A program made the translations under genes and the position numbers. Of a stretch of 64,000 nucleotides of DNA, positions 45,998 through 56,076 are shown in pieces. The first letter of the stretch is position 1. Every line of letters begins with the position of its first letter. The notes under the pieces are model-generated. The model was given only the letters and a program-made list of their open reading frames with translations. It ran no database searches and was not told the DNA's origin. This DNA is from Desulfococcus multivorans (lineage in GTDB: Bacteria; Desulfobacterota; Desulfobacteria; Desulfobacterales; Desulfococcaceae). The stretch is from positions 274,001 to 338,000 of the forward strand of contig NZ_CP015381.1 of the NCBI RefSeq assembly GCF_001854245.1. Direction: 5' to 3'.

Positions 45998-48475
45998 TTA
46001 TCGCGGCGATGTCGCCGTTTCTGGTCCAGAAGGAGCGCCTGACCGCCGCTCCTGGTTCCGCTTCCGGATGATCGCCGCCGTCTCGGCGATCTCCTCCCGC
46101 GATACCCCTTTCCGGAGCCTTTCCATCTCGGCCATCACCCGGGCGAAGCGCACGCCTTCGGCGGCGCTGATCCATTCCAGTTGGAGGCGTTCGGTGCGGA
46201 TGCCCAGCTTCTCCATTTTCTTCCGGACCTTCTCCACCCGCTTGACCGTCCAGTGGTTGGCGTCGATGTAGTGACAGTCTCCAATGTGGCAGCCGCTCAC
46301 CAGGACCACGGGGGCGCCTTTTTTAAAGGCATGCCAGATGAAGGACTCATCGACCCGGCCGCTGCACATGGTACGGATGAGCCGGACATTGGCGGGATAC
46401 TGGAGGCGCGAGACCCCCGCATAGTCGGCACCGGCGTAGGAGCACCAGTTGCAGGCGAAGGTCAGGATCTTGTCCGCCGCGTTTTCAGCGAGGAGCGCGT
46501 CGATCTGGGCGATGATCTGGGCGTCGGTGAAGTGGTTCATGACGATGGCTCCAAACCGGCACTCGGCGGCGCAGGTGCCGCACCCGGCGCAGGCGGCCGC
46601 GTTGACGACGGCGGGAATCTTCCGCTTGACGTCCACGGTGATGGCGTTGTAGGGGCAGACCTCGGCGCACTTCCCGCAGGCCCGGCACTGCTCGGTGATG
46701 ATCTCGGAGGTGATGGGCTCCGAGGTGATCTGGCCCCTGTGCATGAGGCGGATGGCTCGGGCCGCGGCGGCGGATCCCTGGGTCACGCTGTCCTTGATGT
46801 CCTTGGGACCCTCGGCGCATCCGGCGTAGAAGACGCCCCGGGTGGCCGCATCCACCGGCTGGAGCTTGGGATGGGCCTCCAGGAAAAAGCCGTCGGCGGT
46901 GAGCTGGAGGCCCAGCATCTCCTGGAGTTTCCCGGTGCCCGGTGCCGGCTGAATGCCCAGGGCCAGGACGAGCATCGACAGATCGTGAAATTCGATCCCG
47001 CCGGTGGCGGTGTTCTCGACGGCCACCCGCAGGGAACCGTCGGGCAGTGCTTCCACCGACCCGGGGAGCCCCCGCAGATACTGGACCCCCAGGCGGCGAC
47101 TCCGATTGTAGAGATCCTCGAACCCTTTGCCGAAAGCCCGAATGTCGATGTAGAAGACCTTGATCTCCATGTCCGGATAGTGTTCCTTCAGGACGAGGGT
47201 GCTCTTGACGGTGTTCATGCAGCAGATGTTGGAGCAGTACTCCCCGCCTTTCCGCTTGGAGCGGGAGCCGACGCACTGGATGAACCCGACGGCGGCGGGC
47301 CGCTGCCGATCCCCCGGCCGGACCAGTTCCCCCCTGGTGGGACCGCCGGCGTTCACCAGCCGTTCGAACTCGAGGCTCGTCACCACGTTCGGAAATCGGG
47401 TGTAGCCATACTCGTCCATCTCCCGGGGATCGTAGGGTGAAAGCCCAGTGGCCACCACAATGGACCCGACGCGTTCGGTGATCTCCTCGTCGGACATGTG
47501 GAAATCGATGCAGCGTTTCTCGCAGGCGTCGAGGCATTTGGAGCAGCCCCTTCCCATGCACTCGTTCATGTTGACGGCATAGGCCGACGGCACCGCCTGT
47601 GGAAACGGGATGTAGACGGCCTTTCGGGACGAGAGCCCCACGTTGAACTCGTCTGGGAAAACCACCGGGCATGCGCGGGCGCAGTCGCCGCAGGCCGTAC
47701 ATGCCGTTTCGTCGACATACCGGGCCTTCTTGAGGACCTTCACCTCGAAATTTCCTACGTAGCCTTTGACCTCGGTCACTTCACTCAAGGTGTGAAGCGT
47801 GATCCTGGGATGTCGACCGACATCCGCCATCTTGGGGCCGAGGATTCAGATGGAGCAGTCCATGGTGGGGAAGGTCTTGTCCAACTGGGCCATGGTGCCG
47901 CCGATGGAGCTGTTTTTTTCCACCAGGGCCACCTCGTAATCATTGTCCGCCAAATCGAGGGCCGCCTGGATGCCGGCGATGCCGCCGCCGATGACAAGGG
48001 TCCTCCGGGTCAACGGCAGGACCGTTTCGGTCAGAGGGGTCAGGAGTCGAACCCGGGCAACGGCCATCTTGACGAGATCCACGGATTTCAGCGTGGCGGC
48101 CCCCGGATCGTTCATGTGCACCCAGGAACACTGCTCCCTCAGATTGGCCATCTCCAGAAGATAGGGGTTGAGCCCGGCCTCCTGCAGCATGTGACGGAAG
48201 GTGGGCTCGTGGAGGCGGGGCGAGCAGGAGGCCACCACGATCCGATCGAGATTCAGCTCGGCGATGTCGGTCTTGATTTCCATCTGACCCGGCTCCGAGC
48301 AGGCGTATGTGACCGCCTTGGCCACGGCGACGCCGGGAAGGGTCTTCGCGCTGTCGGCCACCCGGCCGCAGTCGACCGTCTGACCGATGTTGAGCCCGCA
48401 TCGGCAGACATACACCCCGATTCGGGCGTCTGTGTTCATATCCATTGGTTGTCTTGCGAACATCGTCGTTCCCAT
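45998..48475 (-). CDS. hdrA: HdrA-like flavoprotein fused to MvhD, probable selenoprotein with TGA read as Sec
   Basis: From ATG 48475 (behind GAGGA) the frame runs 209 codons of an HdrA N-terminus (VYVCRCGLNIG, GGGIAGIQAALDLAD with the FAD motif). It then meets TGA at 47848-47846 and continues in the same frame for about 615 codons. Those encode the rest of HdrA (PKMADVGRHP, ferredoxin Cys motifs CTACGDCARACP, CRACGKCAEVCP and CAGCGTCAAECR) and an MvhD/FlpD domain at the C-terminus (FACNWCSYAGAD, VSGCHIGDCHY). The TGA stands where HdrA has the second Cys of DCSxC-L-PKM. A SECIS-like hairpin follows. HdrA is the FAD unit of electron-bifurcating heterodisulfide reductase-type complexes. Without Sec insertion this would be a pseudogene. 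Confidence 0.82.
47808..47848 (-). promoter_or_regulatory. Probable bacterial SECIS element after the hdrA TGA
   Basis: On the mRNA strand, TGA (47848-47846) is followed 20 bases later by GGATGTC-GGTC-GACATCC (47825-47808), a perfect 7-bp stem with a GGUC loop. The loop G begins 27 bases after the TGA. E. coli fdhF also presents GGUC at its SelB-binding loop, and the known distance range for bacterial SECIS elements includes this spacing. Confidence 0.7.
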
Positions 48476-48498: not shown

Positions 48499-50085
48499 CT
48501 ATTCCCAGCGGATCGTCCGGGCGATGACGCTGGTCAGATCGGCGGTTTCCATCATGAGCTCCCGGCCCAGAAAAGGGTCTTCCATGGCGCACCGGAGATG
48601 AATCTGGCACTTGGGACAGGAGGTGACCATGAGGTCGCTGCCGGTGGCCGCGGCCTGCCGGATGCGTCGGACCTGAAACGCCTTGCTGTAGGCGTCGCAT
48701 CCGGTCCAGGCGCAGTTTCCGCAGCAGATGGATGCGGCGCCGCTGTCCTTCATCTCCGTAAACCGGGTCGGCATAAGGCGGTGGATGAGTTTGCGCGGCA
48801 AGGCACCCACGCCGGACAGGCGGTTCAGGCGGCAGGCATCCTGATAGGTGATCCGGTGCTCCAGGGGAGCGAAGGTGACGGCGCCCTTGTCGATCTCCCG
48901 CTCCAGAAATTCGTAGAGATGCATCACCGTGAAGGCCGGCTTGACGCCGTGGCGCGGGTAGTCCAGTGACAAGGTGCGGTAACATTCGGGGCATGCGGTG
49001 ATGAGCGTCTCGATGCCGAGGTCGTTCATCATCTCCGTGTTCAACCGGGCCAGTTTCAGAAAGTTTTGCCGGTCTCCGGACCAGAGAAGATCGTGGCCGC
49101 AGCACCGTTCGGTTTCCAGGAGTCTCGGGTGAACGTCGAAAAAGTTGAGAAGCCGGACGGCGTCGAAAAGAGTCCGGGAGGTGTCGAGGCCGGCGTGGTT
49201 CCGGAAAAAAATGTCGAAATAAGGGGCGCAACCGCCGAAGAAGAGGGTCTTTCCTTCGGGGTCCGCAATGAGGTCGGCTGGACGGTCTTTCCACCGTCCG
49301 GGCGAGATTTCCGGCGAGGTCATGGTCCGCATGAGGGACTGAAAGAACCCGCCGTGGGCCTGGTTTTCGTCTCCCTGTCGGGCGTGGATCCAGGAGCGGA
49401 CATCCCGGATGAATTCGGGAAAATCGACGTCGGAAGGGCAGCGTTCGTGGCAGAGGCCGCAGGTGAGGCAGGCCCAGACGTCCCGGATGACCGCTTCCGA
49501 AAGGGGCGGCGCCGCGGCGATGGCGCCCACCAGGGCCCTTGGGGAGTAAGGCTTGCCGCTCAGGGCCAGGGGGCAGGCCGAGGTGCATTTGCCGCAGTCC
49601 TGGCAGGCGTATGCGTCGTGCTTTTTCAGGATATCGGCCAATGACGTCGGGTCCTCGGTCGTCTCGGCAGGGACCTTTCCCATCGGCACCACGGGGCTCT
49701 TGCCCATGGTCTTGATGTCCGCCGTGAATTCCGCAAGAAAGCGCCTTAGCGGCTCGGTGTCGTCGGGCAGGAAAGTGGCGAAACGGAGCCGACGGCCGCC
49801 GATCCCCGCGAGCTCCAGAATGCGCTCCGTGTCCTCGGTGTTGTTCACGGCGTTTAGGGTGCCGGTGCCATACCGGCACGTCCCCGGGCCACACCCCACT
49901 AGAGCCACGCCGTCGGCGCCCATTTCAAAGGCTTTGAGGAGCAGGGCCTTGGTGATTCTTCCGGTGCAGGAGACCCGAACCATTTTGATTTCCGGCGGGA
50001 TCTGGTAGCCGTTGTCCTGAAGGTTATGGTAGGCGGTGTGGGGCGCCCAATTGCACAGATAGAGTATGATTTTATAGTCGCTCAT
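48499..50085 (-). CDS. MvhD/HdrC/HdrB-like fused Fe-S protein
   Basis: The 528-residue protein begins with an MvhD-type domain (about 5-110; YLCNWAPHTAY, RVSCTGRITKALLL, VGCGPGTCRYG). A 2x[4Fe-4S] HdrC-like segment follows (about 150-220; CQDCGKCTSACP, CLTCGLCHERCP), then an HdrB/HdrD-like region with CCG-type cysteines (FFGGCAPYFD, ERCCGHDLLW, ACPECYRTL, ICCGNCAW, TSCPKCQIHL). These parts carry electrons between HdrA and the disulfide- or thiol-reducing site in Hdr complexes. It starts 31 bases after the preceding gene of the operon and ends 23 bases before hdrA. The terminal acceptor is unknown. Confidence 0.88.
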   Translation of the reverse strand: MSDYKIILYLCNWAPHTAYHNLQDNGYQIPPEIKMVRVSCTGRITKALLLKAFEMGADGVALVGCGPGTCRYGTGTLNAVNNTEDTERILELAGIGGRRLRFATFLPDDTEPLRRFLAEFTADIKTMGKSPVVPMGKVPAETTEDPTSLADILKKHDAYACQDCGKCTSACPLALSGKPYSPRALVGAIAAAPPLSEAVIRDVWACLTCGLCHERCPSDVDFPEFIRDVRSWIHARQGDENQAHGGFFQSLMRTMTSPEISPGRWKDRPADLIADPEGKTLFFGGCAPYFDIFFRNHAGLDTSRTLFDAVRLLNFFDVHPRLLETERCCGHDLLWSGDRQNFLKLARLNTEMMNDLGIETLITACPECYRTLSLDYPRHGVKPAFTVMHLYEFLEREIDKGAVTFAPLEHRITYQDACRLNRLSGVGALPRKLIHRLMPTRFTEMKDSGAASICCGNCAWTGCDAYSKAFQVRRIRQAAATGSDLMVTSCPKCQIHLRCAMEDPFLGRELMMETADLTSVIARTIRWE

Positions 50086-50116: not shown

Positions 50117-53100
50117 TTACGGCAGCAGGATTTCCGCGAGGGTCTGCTCGAAGAATTTCTGGCTTCGAAAGGGACTGTCCGCCGCATTGGTGGGGCAAAC
50201 GGAGATGCAGTTGCCGCACCCTTTGCAAAAGGCCTCGTCGACCACGGCGTAGCGGCCGATATCGTTCCGCTTCAGGGTCACGGCCTGGTAGGCGCAGGCA
50301 TCGACGCAGCGCCCGCAGCCGCGGCAGGCGGCCTCGTTCACGGTAACGGTAAACCCTTTGTTCTGCCGGGCGCTGTTCGGCATGGCCGCGGCGGTCAGCA
50401 TGGCGGCGGCGGCACCCTTCCGGCGGGCGGAGATGCGGATGCCGGGCGGGTCGGCCAGGAAAAGCCCCGAAACGGCGGTCATGCCCGGGTAGAAAAAGGG
50501 GACGCCCGTGACACCGGCAGACTGCATGTCCACGGCCGTGACCCGCAACGGGAGGCCTTCCTGGTGGATGTGCCGGATGTGCCGCCGGGATTTTTCCCCC
50601 AGAATCACGGCGCCCACCTGCATCTGCTGAACGTGACCGTCTTCGGTTTCCACCGTCAGCTGAAAATCACCCAGATTGCCGCTCAGCCGCGTCACCCGAG
50701 CGCCGGTGAAGGCGTGGATGTTGGGGTGGTCCGGCAGATCGCCCGCGGATGCCGCCTCCGATCCGAAGGTGAAAACGTCCATGCCGATATCGGCAAGGGT
50801 CACGGCGCTGGTCATGGCGGCCTCCGACCGGCCGATGACGGCCGTGGCGAAGTTGTAGAGCCGGCTCGGGGTCGGAAAGGCGGTGAGTTTGCGGGAGCGC
50901 TTCACCGACCGATCGATAAGGCCCCGGAGACGCTTCAGGGCCTCGTCCGGATCCTTCTGGAGCAGGCTCAGCGCTTCTCCCCGAATGTTTCGGACCATGA
51001 CCATGGACCGGCTGATGCCCGTCGCCGTGAACAGCGCGTGCTTCAAGCGGCTCCGCTGATCCGTGCAGGCGCTGCAGACGAAATTGAGGGGGCAGCAGAC
51101 GCACGATCCCAGAACGATTCGCGTGATGCCTTTGTCCCGGACGGTCTTGATGACGGCGGCAATCCCCTCGGGCACGCAGGCCGACGCCAGGGTTCCGGTG
51201 TGCACGACGTCCGGGACCGCGGCCAGTGATTCGATGTACCGGTCCATCTCGTCCATCCACCCGAGAGAGTCGTTGCACCGGCAAATGAAAACGCCGATCC
51301 GGATATCGGGCGAGAGGCCGGGGTCGGGCTGAGTGAACGAAAACCCGTTGCCTTTCCGCACCCAGGAGGCGTCGCCCAACAGCAGGAGGGCCTGGGCGGC
51401 TGCCGCATATCCGCGCATCAGCATGGCGTAGACGTCGGGCTTCGCGGACCTGGGGCCGTAAGCCCGGATGATGTCGTCGCCCTTGACGGCCGGGGCCATG
51501 TCCGGGTCGGCGATGATCACGGCACCGGCGTGTTCCGCAAAGGTCTCCCCGGTGTCTGTGTGGCAGATGGCCCCCACGGCGCCGCAGGCCCTGACACATT
51601 CCAGGCACTCGGCGCAGACGCCGCACTGAAGGCAGCGATCCGCCTCTTCACGCACCTGAACCTCGGAGAGCCCCAGGGCCACCTCGGTGAAACCGCCGAT
51701 TCGGGCGGCAGGCTGGACCTCGGACATGGGAACGCGGCAGTGGACGGGAATGTTCGAGGGGATGTCCCGGAAATCCCGGTCCGAAGGCCGCGCACAGGTG
51801 GGCGAAGGCACGGGAACGCCGCAGATGTCCGAGAGGGCCGTGATCGCCGCCAGACGACCTGAGGCCATGGCCTTGACGACGGTGGATGGGCCTGAAACGG
51901 CGTCTCCGGCGGCATAGACGCCGGAAAGCGAGGTCCGGGGGCCGTTGTCCGTCCGAATCAACCCCCGGTCGGTGATCTCCAGACCGCCCAGGGATGATCC
52001 CGGTTCAAAGGCCCCGATCTGCCCGATGGCGACGAAAGCCCGGTCCGCGGCCATCTCGAACGCCGAGGCACCGGGAACGATGACCGGCCAGGCCACCCCG
52101 CCGGCGTCGGGTTTTCCCGGCCGCGTGGGTTTGACGCTGAGGCGGTCGAGACGACCCGCCTTGCCGAGAAATGCGACAACCTGGCACCGATCCCGGATGA
52201 CGACGCCTTCCTGAACGGCGCCCTGGATTTCTTCGGGATCGGCGGGAATCTCGTCCTTTCCGAACCAGGAGATGAGGGTGACCGATGCGCCCGTGCGGAC
52301 GAGGGTCCGGGCCAGGTCAAAGGCCGCGTTACCGTCGCCGATGACCACGGCCCGTTGCCGGAGGGGTTCCATCTCTCCGCGGTGGCAGCGGTTGAGAAAT
52401 TCGAGGCATCCCGATATGCCGTCAAGGTCCTCGCCCGGGATGCCCAGTCGCCGGTCCTTCCAGGATCCGACGGCCACCACGACACCACTGTAGGATGCCG
52501 TCATGGACTGGATATCGGTCAGGTCCACGGGATGGCCGGCGGCGAACGTGACGCCCATGTCGCGGACGACGGCAAGCTCGGCGTCCAGGATGTGCCGCGG
52601 AAGCCGGTGAGGACCGATGCCGTAGCGGAGAAGACCGCCGGCCGACGCTTCGCGCTCGAAGACGGTCGCGGCGCATCCGGCTCGGGCGAATTCCGCCGCC
52701 GCCGCGATTCCCGCCGGACCGCCCCCGATGACCGCAAAATGTTCGGGGCGTCGTTCAGCAGGACGAGGGGCCGGTGTCTCTTCGGGGTGGGCTGCGCCAT
52801 AGTCGGAGAGGAAACGCTTGATGTCGCGGATGGCGACCGGATCGTCCAGGGTTCCCCGGCGGCAGTCGTCCTCGCAAGGGTGGTTGCAGATGCGGCCGCA
52901 GATGCCGGGGAGAATGTTCCGTTCCCGGATCAGGGCAAGCGCCTCGGCGTATTTGCCGGCCCCGGCCAGAGCGACGTACCCTTGGGCGTTGACGCCGAGA
53001 GGACAGTTTTCCCGGCAAAGGGGTGTCCGACGCTTATCGATGACCGGCCGGCCCGGGAGACTCAGGCGTCCGTCGAAGACGATCGCTTTGCGGCCGTCCT

Positions 53101-53476
53101 CCGTCGACACCGGACAGGCTTCGGCGCAGCGACCGCAGAGAACGCAGGCGTCGGGGTTCGTGAAGGTCTGGTGACGGAAGATGCCGACCCGGAACCCCTG
53201 GGGGGTATGTCGAATGCCGGTGACATCGGCGGGTAGGAGACACTGGATAGCCGGGTTTCTCAAAATACGGATGAGGCCGGGCCGGTGCGCGTGGTTGAGA
53301 GGGACCCCCGAGTTGAGCCGCCAGGCGTCGTTGGCGAGCTTGCGGTCGAGGTTCGCGTCCCGGTCCACCAGGGTCACCGGAACGCCCAGTTCTCCCAGCT
53401 TGTTGGCGGCCGCGATCCCCGAGGGGTTGGCGCCGATGATGACAACTTTGTGCAGACGGTCTTTGGGGCGCTTCAT
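50117..53476 (-). CDS. GltD/NfnB-like and HdrA-like fused flavoprotein with Fe-S domains
   Basis: This 1119-residue protein has an N-terminal nucleotide-binding motif (VVIIGANPSGIAAANKL), a ferredoxin motif (CVLCGRCAEACP), a GltD-type Fe-S segment (ENCPLGVNAQGYV, GRICNHPCEDDC) and GltD FAD/NAD(P) domains (VIGGGPAGIAAAAEF, VVIGDGNAAFDLARTL, GVYAAGDAVSGPS). A Cys-rich linker, an HdrA-like region (IGVFICRCNDSLG) and a C-terminal 2x[4Fe-4S] (CRGCGRCVDACAY, CKGCGNCISVCP) follow. It probably joins NAD(P)H to the Hdr and ferredoxin pools. The start overlaps the korC stop by four bases, which ties it to 2-oxoacid oxidation. Confidence 0.88.
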   Translation of the reverse strand: MKRPKDRLHKVVIIGANPSGIAAANKLGELGVPVTLVDRDANLDRKLANDAWRLNSGVPLNHAHRPGLIRILRNPAIQCLLPADVTGIRHTPQGFRVGIFRHQTFTNPDACVLCGRCAEACPVSTEDGRKAIVFDGRLSLPGRPVIDKRRTPLCRENCPLGVNAQGYVALAGAGKYAEALALIRERNILPGICGRICNHPCEDDCRRGTLDDPVAIRDIKRFLSDYGAAHPEETPAPRPAERRPEHFAVIGGGPAGIAAAAEFARAGCAATVFEREASAGGLLRYGIGPHRLPRHILDAELAVVRDMGVTFAAGHPVDLTDIQSMTASYSGVVVAVGSWKDRRLGIPGEDLDGISGCLEFLNRCHRGEMEPLRQRAVVIGDGNAAFDLARTLVRTGASVTLISWFGKDEIPADPEEIQGAVQEGVVIRDRCQVVAFLGKAGRLDRLSVKPTRPGKPDAGGVAWPVIVPGASAFEMAADRAFVAIGQIGAFEPGSSLGGLEITDRGLIRTDNGPRTSLSGVYAAGDAVSGPSTVVKAMASGRLAAITALSDICGVPVPSPTCARPSDRDFRDIPSNIPVHCRVPMSEVQPAARIGGFTEVALGLSEVQVREEADRCLQCGVCAECLECVRACGAVGAICHTDTGETFAEHAGAVIIADPDMAPAVKGDDIIRAYGPRSAKPDVYAMLMRGYAAAAQALLLLGDASWVRKGNGFSFTQPDPGLSPDIRIGVFICRCNDSLGWMDEMDRYIESLAAVPDVVHTGTLASACVPEGIAAVIKTVRDKGITRIVLGSCVCCPLNFVCSACTDQRSRLKHALFTATGISRSMVMVRNIRGEALSLLQKDPDEALKRLRGLIDRSVKRSRKLTAFPTPSRLYNFATAVIGRSEAAMTSAVTLADIGMDVFTFGSEAASAGDLPDHPNIHAFTGARVTRLSGNLGDFQLTVETEDGHVQQMQVGAVILGEKSRRHIRHIHQEGLPLRVTAVDMQSAGVTGVPFFYPGMTAVSGLFLADPPGIRISARRKGAAAAMLTAAAMPNSARQNKGFTVTVNEAACRGCGRCVDACAYQAVTLKRNDIGRYAVVDEAFCKGCGNCISVCPTNAADSPFRSQKFFEQTLAEILLP

Positions 53477-54078
53477 CGAACGGCTCCTATCCTGCCGGCG
53501 GTGCCGGATTTTTTCTTCTCCCGTCCTTTCAGGGTTGACGCGCCGTAGTCGAACCCCTTGACGAAGGCGGCCAAATTCATCTCTTCCGTCCCCTTGGGGA
53601 CCGAAGCGGTGACGGCGGTCTTCATGGCATCCAAAGAGACCACGCCGGTGACGGCCGTGGCGAATCCCATCATGATGATATTGGCCATCATCTTTCGCCC
53701 CAGCTCCTCGGCCATACGGGTGGCGGGGATGGAAAAGACTTCCGGTCGGTCGCCGCCCGGGGCGACCAGATCCTTGTCCGTCAGGAGGCGGCCCGAGGGC
53801 TTGAGGGCGGTGCGGTATTTTTCGTAGGCCGATTGGGACATGCAGATGAGGATGTCGGGCGCCTCGATATAGGGGTACTGGATGACTGCGTCGGAAATGA
53901 TCACCTGGGCGCAGCAGGCGCCGCCCCGGGATTCCGGGCCGTAGGACTGGACCAGCGTACTTTCCCGGTGGTCCCCCAGGGCCGCGGCCATGCCGAGGAT
54001 CCGGCCGGCCAGGACGATGCCCTGCCCACCGAATCCGGTAACGATAACTTCCTGCCGTTTGATGTCTTTTCGCGCCAT
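53473..54078 (-). CDS. korC: 2-oxoacid:ferredoxin oxidoreductase, gamma subunit
   Basis: The 201-residue protein has the gamma-subunit signature VTGFGGQGIVLAGRILG and SYGPESRGGACCAQVIIS, with the expected length. ATG 54078 with GGAGGAGGGG is preferred to a start 15 codons up. It completes the KorABCD complex that oxidises 2-oxoglutarate or a related 2-oxoacid to the acyl-CoA while reducing ferredoxin. It starts four bases after korB ends and overlaps the following flavoprotein gene. Confidence 0.93.
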   Translation of the reverse strand: MARKDIKRQEVIVTGFGGQGIVLAGRILGMAAALGDHRESTLVQSYGPESRGGACCAQVIISDAVIQYPYIEAPDILICMSQSAYEKYRTALKPSGRLLTDKDLVAPGGDRPEVFSIPATRMAEELGRKMMANIIMMGFATAVTGVVSLDAMKTAVTASVPKGTEEMNLAAFVKGFDYGASTLKGREKKKSGTAGRIGAVR

Positions 54079-54082
54079 GGCT

Positions 54083-54928
54083 TTACCCCTCCTCCGGCCG
54101 GTACATCCTTTTATAGATCTCATCGTGGGTGGGTTTCTCGATGTCCAGAAAATTCCCGAGAATCGGCCCCCGTGCGTCGCTCATGTCCAGTTCGGCGGGA
54201 TGAGCGCCGTTTTTGATGATGGCTTTTTCCTGATAGTGCCTGAGCGTGTCGATGGCTTTTTCCCGGTTGCGTCGGCCGTAGTTGACGGGGCAGGGCGACA
54301 GCGCCTCGATAAAGGAGAATCCTCGCCGCCGAAGGGCGGCCGCGATGGCGTCGGCCAGATCCCGTGCGTGGAGCATCGACCATCGGGCGATATAGGTGGC
54401 GCCGGCGGCGTAGGCCAGAAGCGGCAGATTGAACGGCGTTTCGGGATTGCCCATCACGGTGGTGGAGGATCTGGCATTGTGGGGGGTGGTGGCGGCAACC
54501 TGTCCGCCGGTCATGCCGTAAGTCAGATTGTTCACGCACACCACCGTGATGTCCATGTTCCGCCGGGCGGCGTGTATGAAGTGATTGCCGCCGATGGCGA
54601 AAAGATCGCCGTCGCCCGAGAAGACGATGACATTCAGTTTCGGGTTGGCCATCTTGATGCCGGTGGCAAAGGGGATGGCCCGACCGTGGGTGGTGTGGAA
54701 CGAGTCGATGTTGATGTACCCCGCGCCGCGGCCCGAACAGCCGATGCCCGACACCATGGCGAACTGATCGTAAGGGATCCCCGTCTGCTTGATGGCCGTG
54801 AGGCAGGCGGTAAAGACCGAGCCGGTGCCGCAGCCGGGGCACCAGATGTGGGGGATCCGGTCCATGCGGACGAGATCCTCCAGGGGATGGACCGTCGGGG
54901 CGACGGCGGGGTCGGCGCTTCGGATCAT
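54083..54928 (-). CDS. korB: 2-oxoacid:ferredoxin oxidoreductase, beta subunit (TPP-binding)
   Basis: The 281-residue subunit shows the thiamine diphosphate/Fe-S site pattern: IPHIWCPGCGTGSVF, GIGCSGRGAGY, GDGDLFAIGGNHFIHAARRN and NLTYGMTGGQ. ATG 54928 overlaps the korA stop (ATGA). The beta subunit binds TPP and passes electrons to the ferredoxin subunit. Similarity is to the 2-oxoglutarate group, and the exact acid is inferred from that. Confidence 0.94.
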   Translation of the reverse strand: MIRSADPAVAPTVHPLEDLVRMDRIPHIWCPGCGTGSVFTACLTAIKQTGIPYDQFAMVSGIGCSGRGAGYINIDSFHTTHGRAIPFATGIKMANPKLNVIVFSGDGDLFAIGGNHFIHAARRNMDITVVCVNNLTYGMTGGQVAATTPHNARSSTTVMGNPETPFNLPLLAYAAGATYIARWSMLHARDLADAIAAALRRRGFSFIEALSPCPVNYGRRNREKAIDTLRHYQEKAIIKNGAHPAELDMSDARGPILGNFLDIEKPTHDEIYKRMYRPEEG

Positions 54929-56076
54929 CGCATGACCTCCTTCTCCATGGCGTCGATGACGGCTTCGGGGGGAATGATGGCGCCCCCGTGATGGCCCACG
55001 CCGATGGTCGGCACCCGTCCGGCGGCGCACCGCTCGACCTCTCGGCTGATTTGGCCCATGTTGATCTCGACGGTGATGATCCCCTTGACTTTCTGGGCCA
55101 GAGCCCGGATCTGTTTTTCGGGGAACGGCCACACCGTCACGAGCCGAAGCATGCCGGCCCGGATGCCCCGTTTCCGTGCTTCGTCCACGGCGGTGAAGCT
55201 GGTGCGGGCGGACACGCCGTAGGAGACGACGGCGATATCGGCGTCCGACAGCCGGTAGGATTCGGTCATGACAATGTCGTCGATGTTGTTCCGGATCTTG
55301 CCCGTGATCCGTTCGATCATTTCCTTCTGGGTCTCCACGGACATCACCGGATACCCCTTTTCATCGTGGGTCAGGCCCGTAACATGGATTTTGTAGCCGT
55401 CGCCGATGGCGGGCATGGGGGCGACGCCGTTGGGTCCGGGTCGGTAGAGACGGAAGCGGTCCTTCCGGCCGGCGGGTCTGGGCCGGGACACCGTTCGGAT
55501 CTTACCGGCCTCGGGAATGACGACCCGTTCGCTCATATGTCCGACGATCTCGTCGGACATGATGAAGACCGGCGTTCGGTAGGCTTCGCTCAGGTTGAAG
55601 GCGGTGATGGTCAGATCGAACATCTCCTGGGGAGATGCGGGGGCGACGGCGATGATCTCGTAGTCGCCGTGGGATCCCCACCGGGCCTGCATCATGTCGG
55701 CCTGGGCGCCCTGGGTGGGCAGGCCCGTGGAGGGCCCGGCCCGCTGGACGTTCACGACCACGCAGGGCGTTTCGGTCACGACGGCGAGTCCAATGGTCTC
55801 CATCATGAGGCTGAAGCCGGGACCGGATGTCGCGGTCATGGATTTGGCGCCGGTCCAGGCGCCGCCGAGCACCGAGGTCATGGCCGCAATCTCGTCCTCC
55901 ATCTGGATGAAGGTGCCGCCTACCCTGGGGAGCCGAATGGAAATATGTTCCGCGACCTCGGTTGCCGGGGTGATGGGATAGCCCCCGAAAAAAGTGCACC
56001 CCGCGGCAATGGCGCCTTCGGCGCAGGCGATGTCTCCGTTAATGAAATGTTCTCCGGTGAGGACTCTGGATGTCAT
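54925..56076 (-). CDS. korA: 2-oxoacid:ferredoxin oxidoreductase, alpha subunit
   Basis: The 383-residue protein has the alpha-subunit motifs GCTFFGGYPITPATEVAEH, MEDEIAAMTSVLGGAWTGAKSMTATSGPG and QRAGPSTGLPTQGAQADM. The length and the lack of a fused gamma domain match KorA of four-subunit enzymes. The korD gene is 92 bases upstream on the same strand, and korB follows with a four-base overlap. Confidence 0.95.
   Translation of the reverse strand: MTSRVLTGEHFINGDIACAEGAIAAGCTFFGGYPITPATEVAEHISIRLPRVGGTFIQMEDEIAAMTSVLGGAWTGAKSMTATSGPGFSLMMETIGLAVVTETPCVVVNVQRAGPSTGLPTQGAQADMMQARWGSHGDYEIIAVAPASPQEMFDLTITAFNLSEAYRTPVFIMSDEIVGHMSERVVIPEAGKIRTVSRPRPAGRKDRFRLYRPGPNGVAPMPAIGDGYKIHVTGLTHDEKGYPVMSVETQKEMIERITGKIRNNIDDIVMTESYRLSDADIAVVSYGVSARTSFTAVDEARKRGIRAGMLRLVTVWPFPEKQIRALAQKVKGIITVEINMGQISREVERCAAGRVPTIGVGHHGGAIIPPEAVIDAMEKEVMR

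Follow-up and report, generated by a model that had tools for sequence, protein, structure and literature searches.

An in-frame UGA very probably encoding selenocysteine in the HdrA-MvhD fusion gene of Desulfococcus multivorans

The window analysed here, a stretch of 64,000 nucleotides of the D. multivorans chromosome (genome positions 274001-338000), carries an HdrA-MvhD fusion gene on its minus strand (window 45998-48475; genome 320001-322475), whose frame translates into 825 residues with one internal stop. This apparent stop, a TGA at 47848-47846, is codon 210 in the motif D-C-S-I-*-I-L-G-P-K-M and very probably encodes selenocysteine (Sec). We regard it as nearly certain that the gene specifies one 825-residue HdrA-MvhD selenoprotein, in which Sec-tRNA(UCA), SelB and a GGUC-loop hairpin insert Sec at UGA210; the insertion itself is predicted from sequence. 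The features on which this reading rests are as follows.

45998..48475, minus strand: HdrA-MvhD fusion, 825 residues with the TGA taken as Sec (matches to NF040770, the FlpD/MvhD domain and 5odc_A)
47846..47848, minus strand: in-frame TGA, codon 210, predicted Sec (frame; TGA in 18/18 full-length orthologues of relatives)
47846..47857, minus strand: predicted CxxU motif, Cys207-Ser-Ile-Sec210 (alignment of residue 210 to residue 197 of 5odc_A)
47808..47825, minus strand: candidate in-frame bacterial SECIS hairpin, 7-bp stem, GGUC loop at 47815-47818 (conservation, covariation, synonymous constraint)

With the TGA read through, the product matched NF040770 (HdrA2) with 1196.3 bits over residues 18-795, above the curated cut-off of 1100, and carried a C-terminal FlpD/MvhD domain at residues 670-785. 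This full-length match, the CxxU at the DCSxC site and the Sec machinery in the genome together agree with membership of NF040770. A preliminary description of this DNA had claimed that the frame is broken solely by the TGA and that the TGA falls at the second Cys of the DCSxC-L-PKM motif; translation confirmed that both halves share one frame, and DCSI*ILGPKM was found to align with DCSIC of 5odc_A. The comparison with a Cys-containing HdrA that it had proposed as a check (762 bits to 5odc_A over residues 16-664) places residue 210 on Cys197 of the methanogen HdrA, at a constant offset of 13. Within the window, ARAGORN found no tRNA and Rfam gave no match at gathering thresholds, and a 291-base piece spanning the TGA had no match in a plasmid collection.

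The TGA is widely shared among relatives. A search of 58 genomes, including that of D. multivorans, found full-length HdrA-MvhD fusions with TGA in at least 18 other genomes (56-83% identity), and in all 18 full-length orthologues checked (L048-L065) the TGA lies exactly at codon 210; these genes are otherwise open over the aligned part, apart from four with stops at the C terminus (query 809-819). Among the best 80 of 589 related public loci from a genome_contigs scan, which may overlap in species with these relatives, codon 210 is TGA in 48 and TGC or TGT in 32. The hairpin (6 or 7 of 7 pairs) with its GGUC loop accompanies 43 of these 48 TGA genes, five lacking the full signature, versus 0 of the 32 Cys genes. 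Because the query resembles the Cys loci less closely, on average, than the TGA loci, the count was repeated as a matched control on sites that encode D[VA]GRHP; hairpin and GGUC were present there in 43/45 TGA and 0/8 Cys sequences (Fisher p 5e-8, the sequences not being independent). An alignment-based SECIS signature separates TGA from Cys genes among the loci examined. That a sequencing error turned TGC or TGT into this TGA, for which nothing speaks beyond the general possibility, is scarcely conceivable and was rejected, because the TGA recurs at the same codon in 18/18 orthologues and in 48 of the best 80 public loci and is linked to a hairpin absent from all 32 Cys loci.

The same comparison bears on whether UGA210 is a true stop, leaving a pseudogene or two polypeptides. 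An ATG at 47830 does begin a downstream frame of 610 residues, and ordinary gene calling splits the gene in two, as the preliminary description had also foreseen. However, the same stop stands in 18/18 orthologues that are otherwise open bar the C-terminal stops in four, the read-through product matches the HdrA and MvhD families along its length, and synonymous constraint is centred on the hairpin. Moreover, HdrA1 protein has been reported on some growth substrates, full length or not being unstated in the passages of PMC5109826 at hand. A true stop is therefore very improbable, and the pseudogene reading was rejected on the orthologue TGA conservation, the synonymous constraint and the TGA-linked hairpin. 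The comparison backs a selenoprotein that gene callers cut in two. Cys forms also occur among relatives: a second full-length copy in genome G053 (L084, 72% identity) has TGC at codon 210 and no hairpin, and TGC or TGT also stands there in three relatives at greater distance (L066-L068). In Desulfobulbus rhabdoformis (L177), codon 210 is TGT and is followed by a near-intact yet broken hairpin, which looks like the fossil of a Sec-to-Cys change.

In bacteria, a SECIS element is a hairpin with a G in its loop, located a short distance 3' of the UGA and within the coding region. The hairpin of the HdrA-MvhD gene agrees with this rule, as its stem GGAUGUC/GACAUCC pairs 47825-47819 with 47814-47808, and 20 bases separate the TGA from the first stem base (47825) and 27 from the first loop G (47818), both exactly the distances first described. 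Hairpin and GGUC loop are present in all 19 TGA sequences (own included), with 97% of cells paired. Across these sequences five of the seven pairs are invariant, one is unpaired in four sequences and one covaries (C-G in 9, U-A in 8, U-G in 2), the silent third base of an Arg codon tracking a Val/Ala change. Stem cells altered on both sides number 8, as high a value being reached in 0 of 500 shuffles; just one of the seven pairs covaries, a count that 200 of 500 shuffles reach. Compensatory change is present in the stem, with moderate support. Folded alone, the 55-nt stretch with the hairpin gave no stability signal (z -0.44), and single-sequence folding energy provides no evidence for the hairpin because equal or better folding was reached by 60 of 200 shuffles. 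In a codon-usage simulation that ignores relatedness, codons 217-222, which belong to the hairpin, formed the top-ranked six-column window for synonymous constraint among 764 columns scored. The hairpin is a candidate SECIS that SelB would bind in the HdrA-MvhD mRNA.

After the TGA and hairpin codons, the next most synonymously constrained stretch is codons 674-680, at the Cys motif of MvhD, where a further RNA element may have left its mark. The D. multivorans genome has a TGA at the corresponding Cys motif of a separate MvhD gene.

The genome, one contig of 4,455,399 bases, contains a tRNA-Sec (77.2 bits, discriminator G), SelA (619 bits), SelB (361 bits) and two SelD genes above the cut-off (L018 and L019; genome 392680 and 2844887). 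Absence of this machinery had been named at the outset as a finding that would refute selenocysteine, and all of its parts are present. Each SelD gene has an in-frame TGA near its start; downstream of one UGA lies a hairpin with a GGUC loop, at a shorter distance than in HdrA-MvhD, and downstream of the other a hairpin without GGUC. Neither SelD is among the five Sec genes given in the consulted part of the D. multivorans genome paper (PMC5109826). In a comparison of distant HdrA-like genes, from which matches without CS in the motif were left out, L070 and L091 (the latter in the D. multivorans genome) have TGA at the same codon and no hairpin at this place. As these two genes lack the hairpin and one SelD hairpin lacks GGUC, the GGUC hairpin signature appears to belong to HdrA-MvhD fusions and not to all Sec genes here. 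L091 (2744722-2748208), the second HdrA-like gene of the genome with TGA at the HdrA-MvhD codon, is probably BamE of the genome paper. A further gene, HdrA2 at 3.25 Mb (L092, 3248242-3251744), has TGC, and the MvhD-like matches adjoining L091 and HdrA2 contain one TGA each, at differing places.

In addition to these genes, the genome encodes a second tRNA(UCA), with A1:U72 and discriminator U, directly upstream of a second SelB (SelB*, 651 aa, matched also in its C-terminal part; L024:4443-6503, genome 1714442-1716502). This pair, like the gene's earlier description in the D. multivorans genome paper, was missing from the preliminary description. ARAGORN labels the tRNA as tRNA-Sec; judged by U73 and A1:U72, it would have cysteine identity, and the pair resembles the selC*/selB* arrangement. 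In the parts consulted of two reviews covering the work of Mukai 2017 (PMC7609411, PMC9437257), the selC* tRNA carries Cys, selC* tRNA-Cys and a second selB occur in Desulfobacterales, and selC* is proposed to act on UGA codons for Sec under selenium scarcity. Because the genome holds a second UCA tRNA with its own SelB, a UGA and a SelB alone are no proof of Sec, and UGA210 might be read as Cys, either constantly or when selenium is low, with SelB* delivering the selC*-type tRNA(UCA). The tRNA with its SelB* and the low-selenium role posited for Desulfobacterales give this reading its footing, but co-occurrence among relatives stands against it and we consider it unlikely. A SelB* match, called at 36% identity or more to the D. 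multivorans SelB* (next best match 33%), is present in 9 of the 58 genomes and absent from 12 of the 19 genomes with TGA-HdrA (own included). Of these 12, ten reach a completeness of 90% or more, 11 carry a canonical SelB match and 11 match tRNA-Sec, G019 just partially and at the edge of a contig, and the hairpin is identical with and without SelB*. The exceptions are G050, which has TGA-HdrA and no tRNA-Sec match at the limits used, and G036, which has TGA-HdrA yet no SelB match of either kind; the missing SelB* in G036 may be a draft gap.

Moreover, a search of D. multivorans gave no cysteinyl-tRNA synthetase (CysRS) lacking the anticodon-binding part, as the two matches over the cut-off are nearly full length, spanning 1-463 and 1-458 of 466; both lie elsewhere in the genome, and no CysRS match for a cysS* beside selB* was found within 1710000-1722000. 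In G002, a CysRS-like frame adjoins selB*, with a match that ends at position 384 of 466. As a requirement for TGA-HdrA, selC*/selB* was rejected, since 12 of the 19 TGA-HdrA genomes lack SelB*; because most of these carry tRNA-Sec and canonical SelB, Sec decoding looks sufficient for TGA-HdrA and SelB* unnecessary.

Sec at UGA210 remains the preferred reading, and beside it there is an outside chance that the codon has two meanings according to selenium supply, being read as Sec where selenium is plentiful and as Cys through selC*/SelB* where it is scarce, with the same hairpin. If so, a Sec/Cys swap at cluster ligand 210 would retune electron bifurcation with the gene unchanged, since residue 210 is by alignment a borrowed inter-subunit [4Fe-4S] ligand. 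The Sec machinery and selC*/selB* in one organism make a good setting for such two-way UGA reading. In the nine selB* neighbourhoods, which ranged from 6.5 to 20 kb in length and were compared through frame lists and mutual similarity, no interrupted gene was recognised as a dedicated UGA target. A double-cubane-cluster reductase gene lies near selB* in five of the nine (L154, L155, L158, L160, L024), identified by family scan in G000 and G027 and by similarity in the others, and an activase gene lies beside it in four (G000, G010, G020, G027). The G027 neighbourhood also holds fdhA, yedF and selD. In G053, the Cys copy of HdrA-MvhD (L084) lies about 12 kb from selC*/selB* (L152), with a Sec copy also in the genome; this Cys copy is possibly part of a low-selenium backup set.

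The role of residue 210 can be approached through the methanogen enzyme, in which Cys197 is an inter-subunit iron-sulfur ligand according to the relevant passages of PMC9012536. Because residue 210 aligns with this ligand, Sec210 probably replaces a cluster thiolate. In the proposed mechanism, the ribosome would pass UGA codon 210 instead of stopping: 20 nt further on, the GGUC hairpin would be bound by SelB with Sec-tRNA(UCA), and selenocysteine would be inserted. Sec210 would then stand in for Cys197, a ligand contributed in the HdrA dimer by the flavin domain of one subunit to the N-terminal [4Fe-4S] cluster of the other, and the selenolate might tune the branch along which electrons of low potential leave the bifurcating FAD for ferredoxin. 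With Sec placed at an iron-sulfur ligand position, the use of selenium becomes testable. The genes upstream of HdrA-MvhD, on the same strand, are the following.

48499..50085, minus strand: MvhD-like domain fused to an HdrC/GlpC-like Fe-S protein (TfrB-type 124.3, VhuD 64 and HdrC 44.7 bits, all under their cut-offs)
50117..53476, minus strand: GltD-like pyridine-nucleotide oxidoreductase with HdrA-like parts, 1119 aa (PRK12771 394.6 and HdrA2 149.3 bits, both under cut-off)
53473..56076, minus strand: 2-oxoacid:ferredoxin oxidoreductase gamma, beta and alpha genes (alpha NF006412 564.7 bits, cut-off 411; beta and gamma matches under their cut-offs)

The first two would correspond to mvhD1 and Dmul_C02800 of PMC5109826, respectively. 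From gene context, our guess is that the 2-oxoacid:ferredoxin oxidoreductase and GltD-like genes point to cytoplasmic electron exchange among ferredoxin, NAD(P)H and thiol-disulfide couples.

The part most worth following is a group of HdrA relatives outside the window with UxxU motifs and tandem hairpins. Two of the best 80 public loci (L210 and L214) have TGA at both motif codons, giving D-U-A-I-U. Of 147 genomes from L210's phylum, its own included, 10 had D-U-A-I-U HdrA in a DNA pattern search with 0 control matches, as did the genome of L214 itself, the single Gemmatimonadota genome examined; this makes 11 genes in all (L210, L214, L250-L260), with nine genomes beyond the two starting ones, and both starting genomes have tRNA-Sec matches. 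Residue 215 is Arg (AGG) in 11/11 UxxU genes, the search pattern having also permitted Lys, and Lys in 63/63 CxxU and 33/33 CxxC sequences (each distinct sequence taken once). With AGG in place, a further 7-bp hairpin is completed immediately 3' of the second TGA; this proximal hairpin is fully paired in 11/11 UxxU genes and shows one compensatory C-G/G-C change in three of them, and the usual distal hairpin keeps at least 6 pairs in 10 of the 11. Since a weaker proximal hairpin (at least 6 pairs) occurs in 16/63 CxxU and 8/33 CxxC sequences, the proximal element is sharpened in UxxU genes rather than absent elsewhere. The two hairpins may be read as candidate tandem SECIS elements for two Sec residues. 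No UxxU HdrA with two UGAs was found in the literature searched, which does not prove its absence from print.

The Sec reading of HdrA-MvhD is correct and is not new, because the genome paper of D. multivorans DSM 2059 (PMC5109826, 2016), in the sections seen, already assigns a UGA and a SECIS to HdrA at this location. There, the chromosome is 4,455,399 bp, HdrA dmul_C02770/80 is among five UGA/SECIS genes, mvhD1 and Dmul_C02800 accompany hdrA1 at 0.32 Mbp, and HdrA1 protein was recorded on some growth substrates. By position and neighbours, the gene described here would be dmul_C02770/80, with which it shares an HdrA with UGA and SECIS at 0.32 Mbp and mvhD1/Dmul_C02800 nearby; section 5 of that paper, as far as consulted, makes no mention of a second tRNA(UCA)/SelB pair or of Sec in SelD. 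The HdrA selenoprotein family NF040770 (CxxU, one Sec) is tabulated as experimentally verified in the relevant part of PMC13188914. The gene resembles this family in CxxU, one Sec and a hairpin after the UGA inside the coding region, and no difference was found in the window. In contrast, 5odc_A, the HdrA of the HdrABC-MvhAGD complex, has the DCSIC motif with Cys where the D. multivorans gene has Sec, and MvhD is a separate chain (5odc_D) in that complex but is fused to HdrA in D. multivorans. Sec-HdrA has been described in Deltaproteobacteria, as excerpts of PMC1794560 (2006) and PMC2702500 indicate. The Sec-coding hdrA genes of Desulfobacterium autotrophicum and Syntrophobacter fumaroxidans likewise come from sulfate reducers and relatives, whereas their gene neighbourhoods, as described in these excerpts, differ from that of D. 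multivorans.
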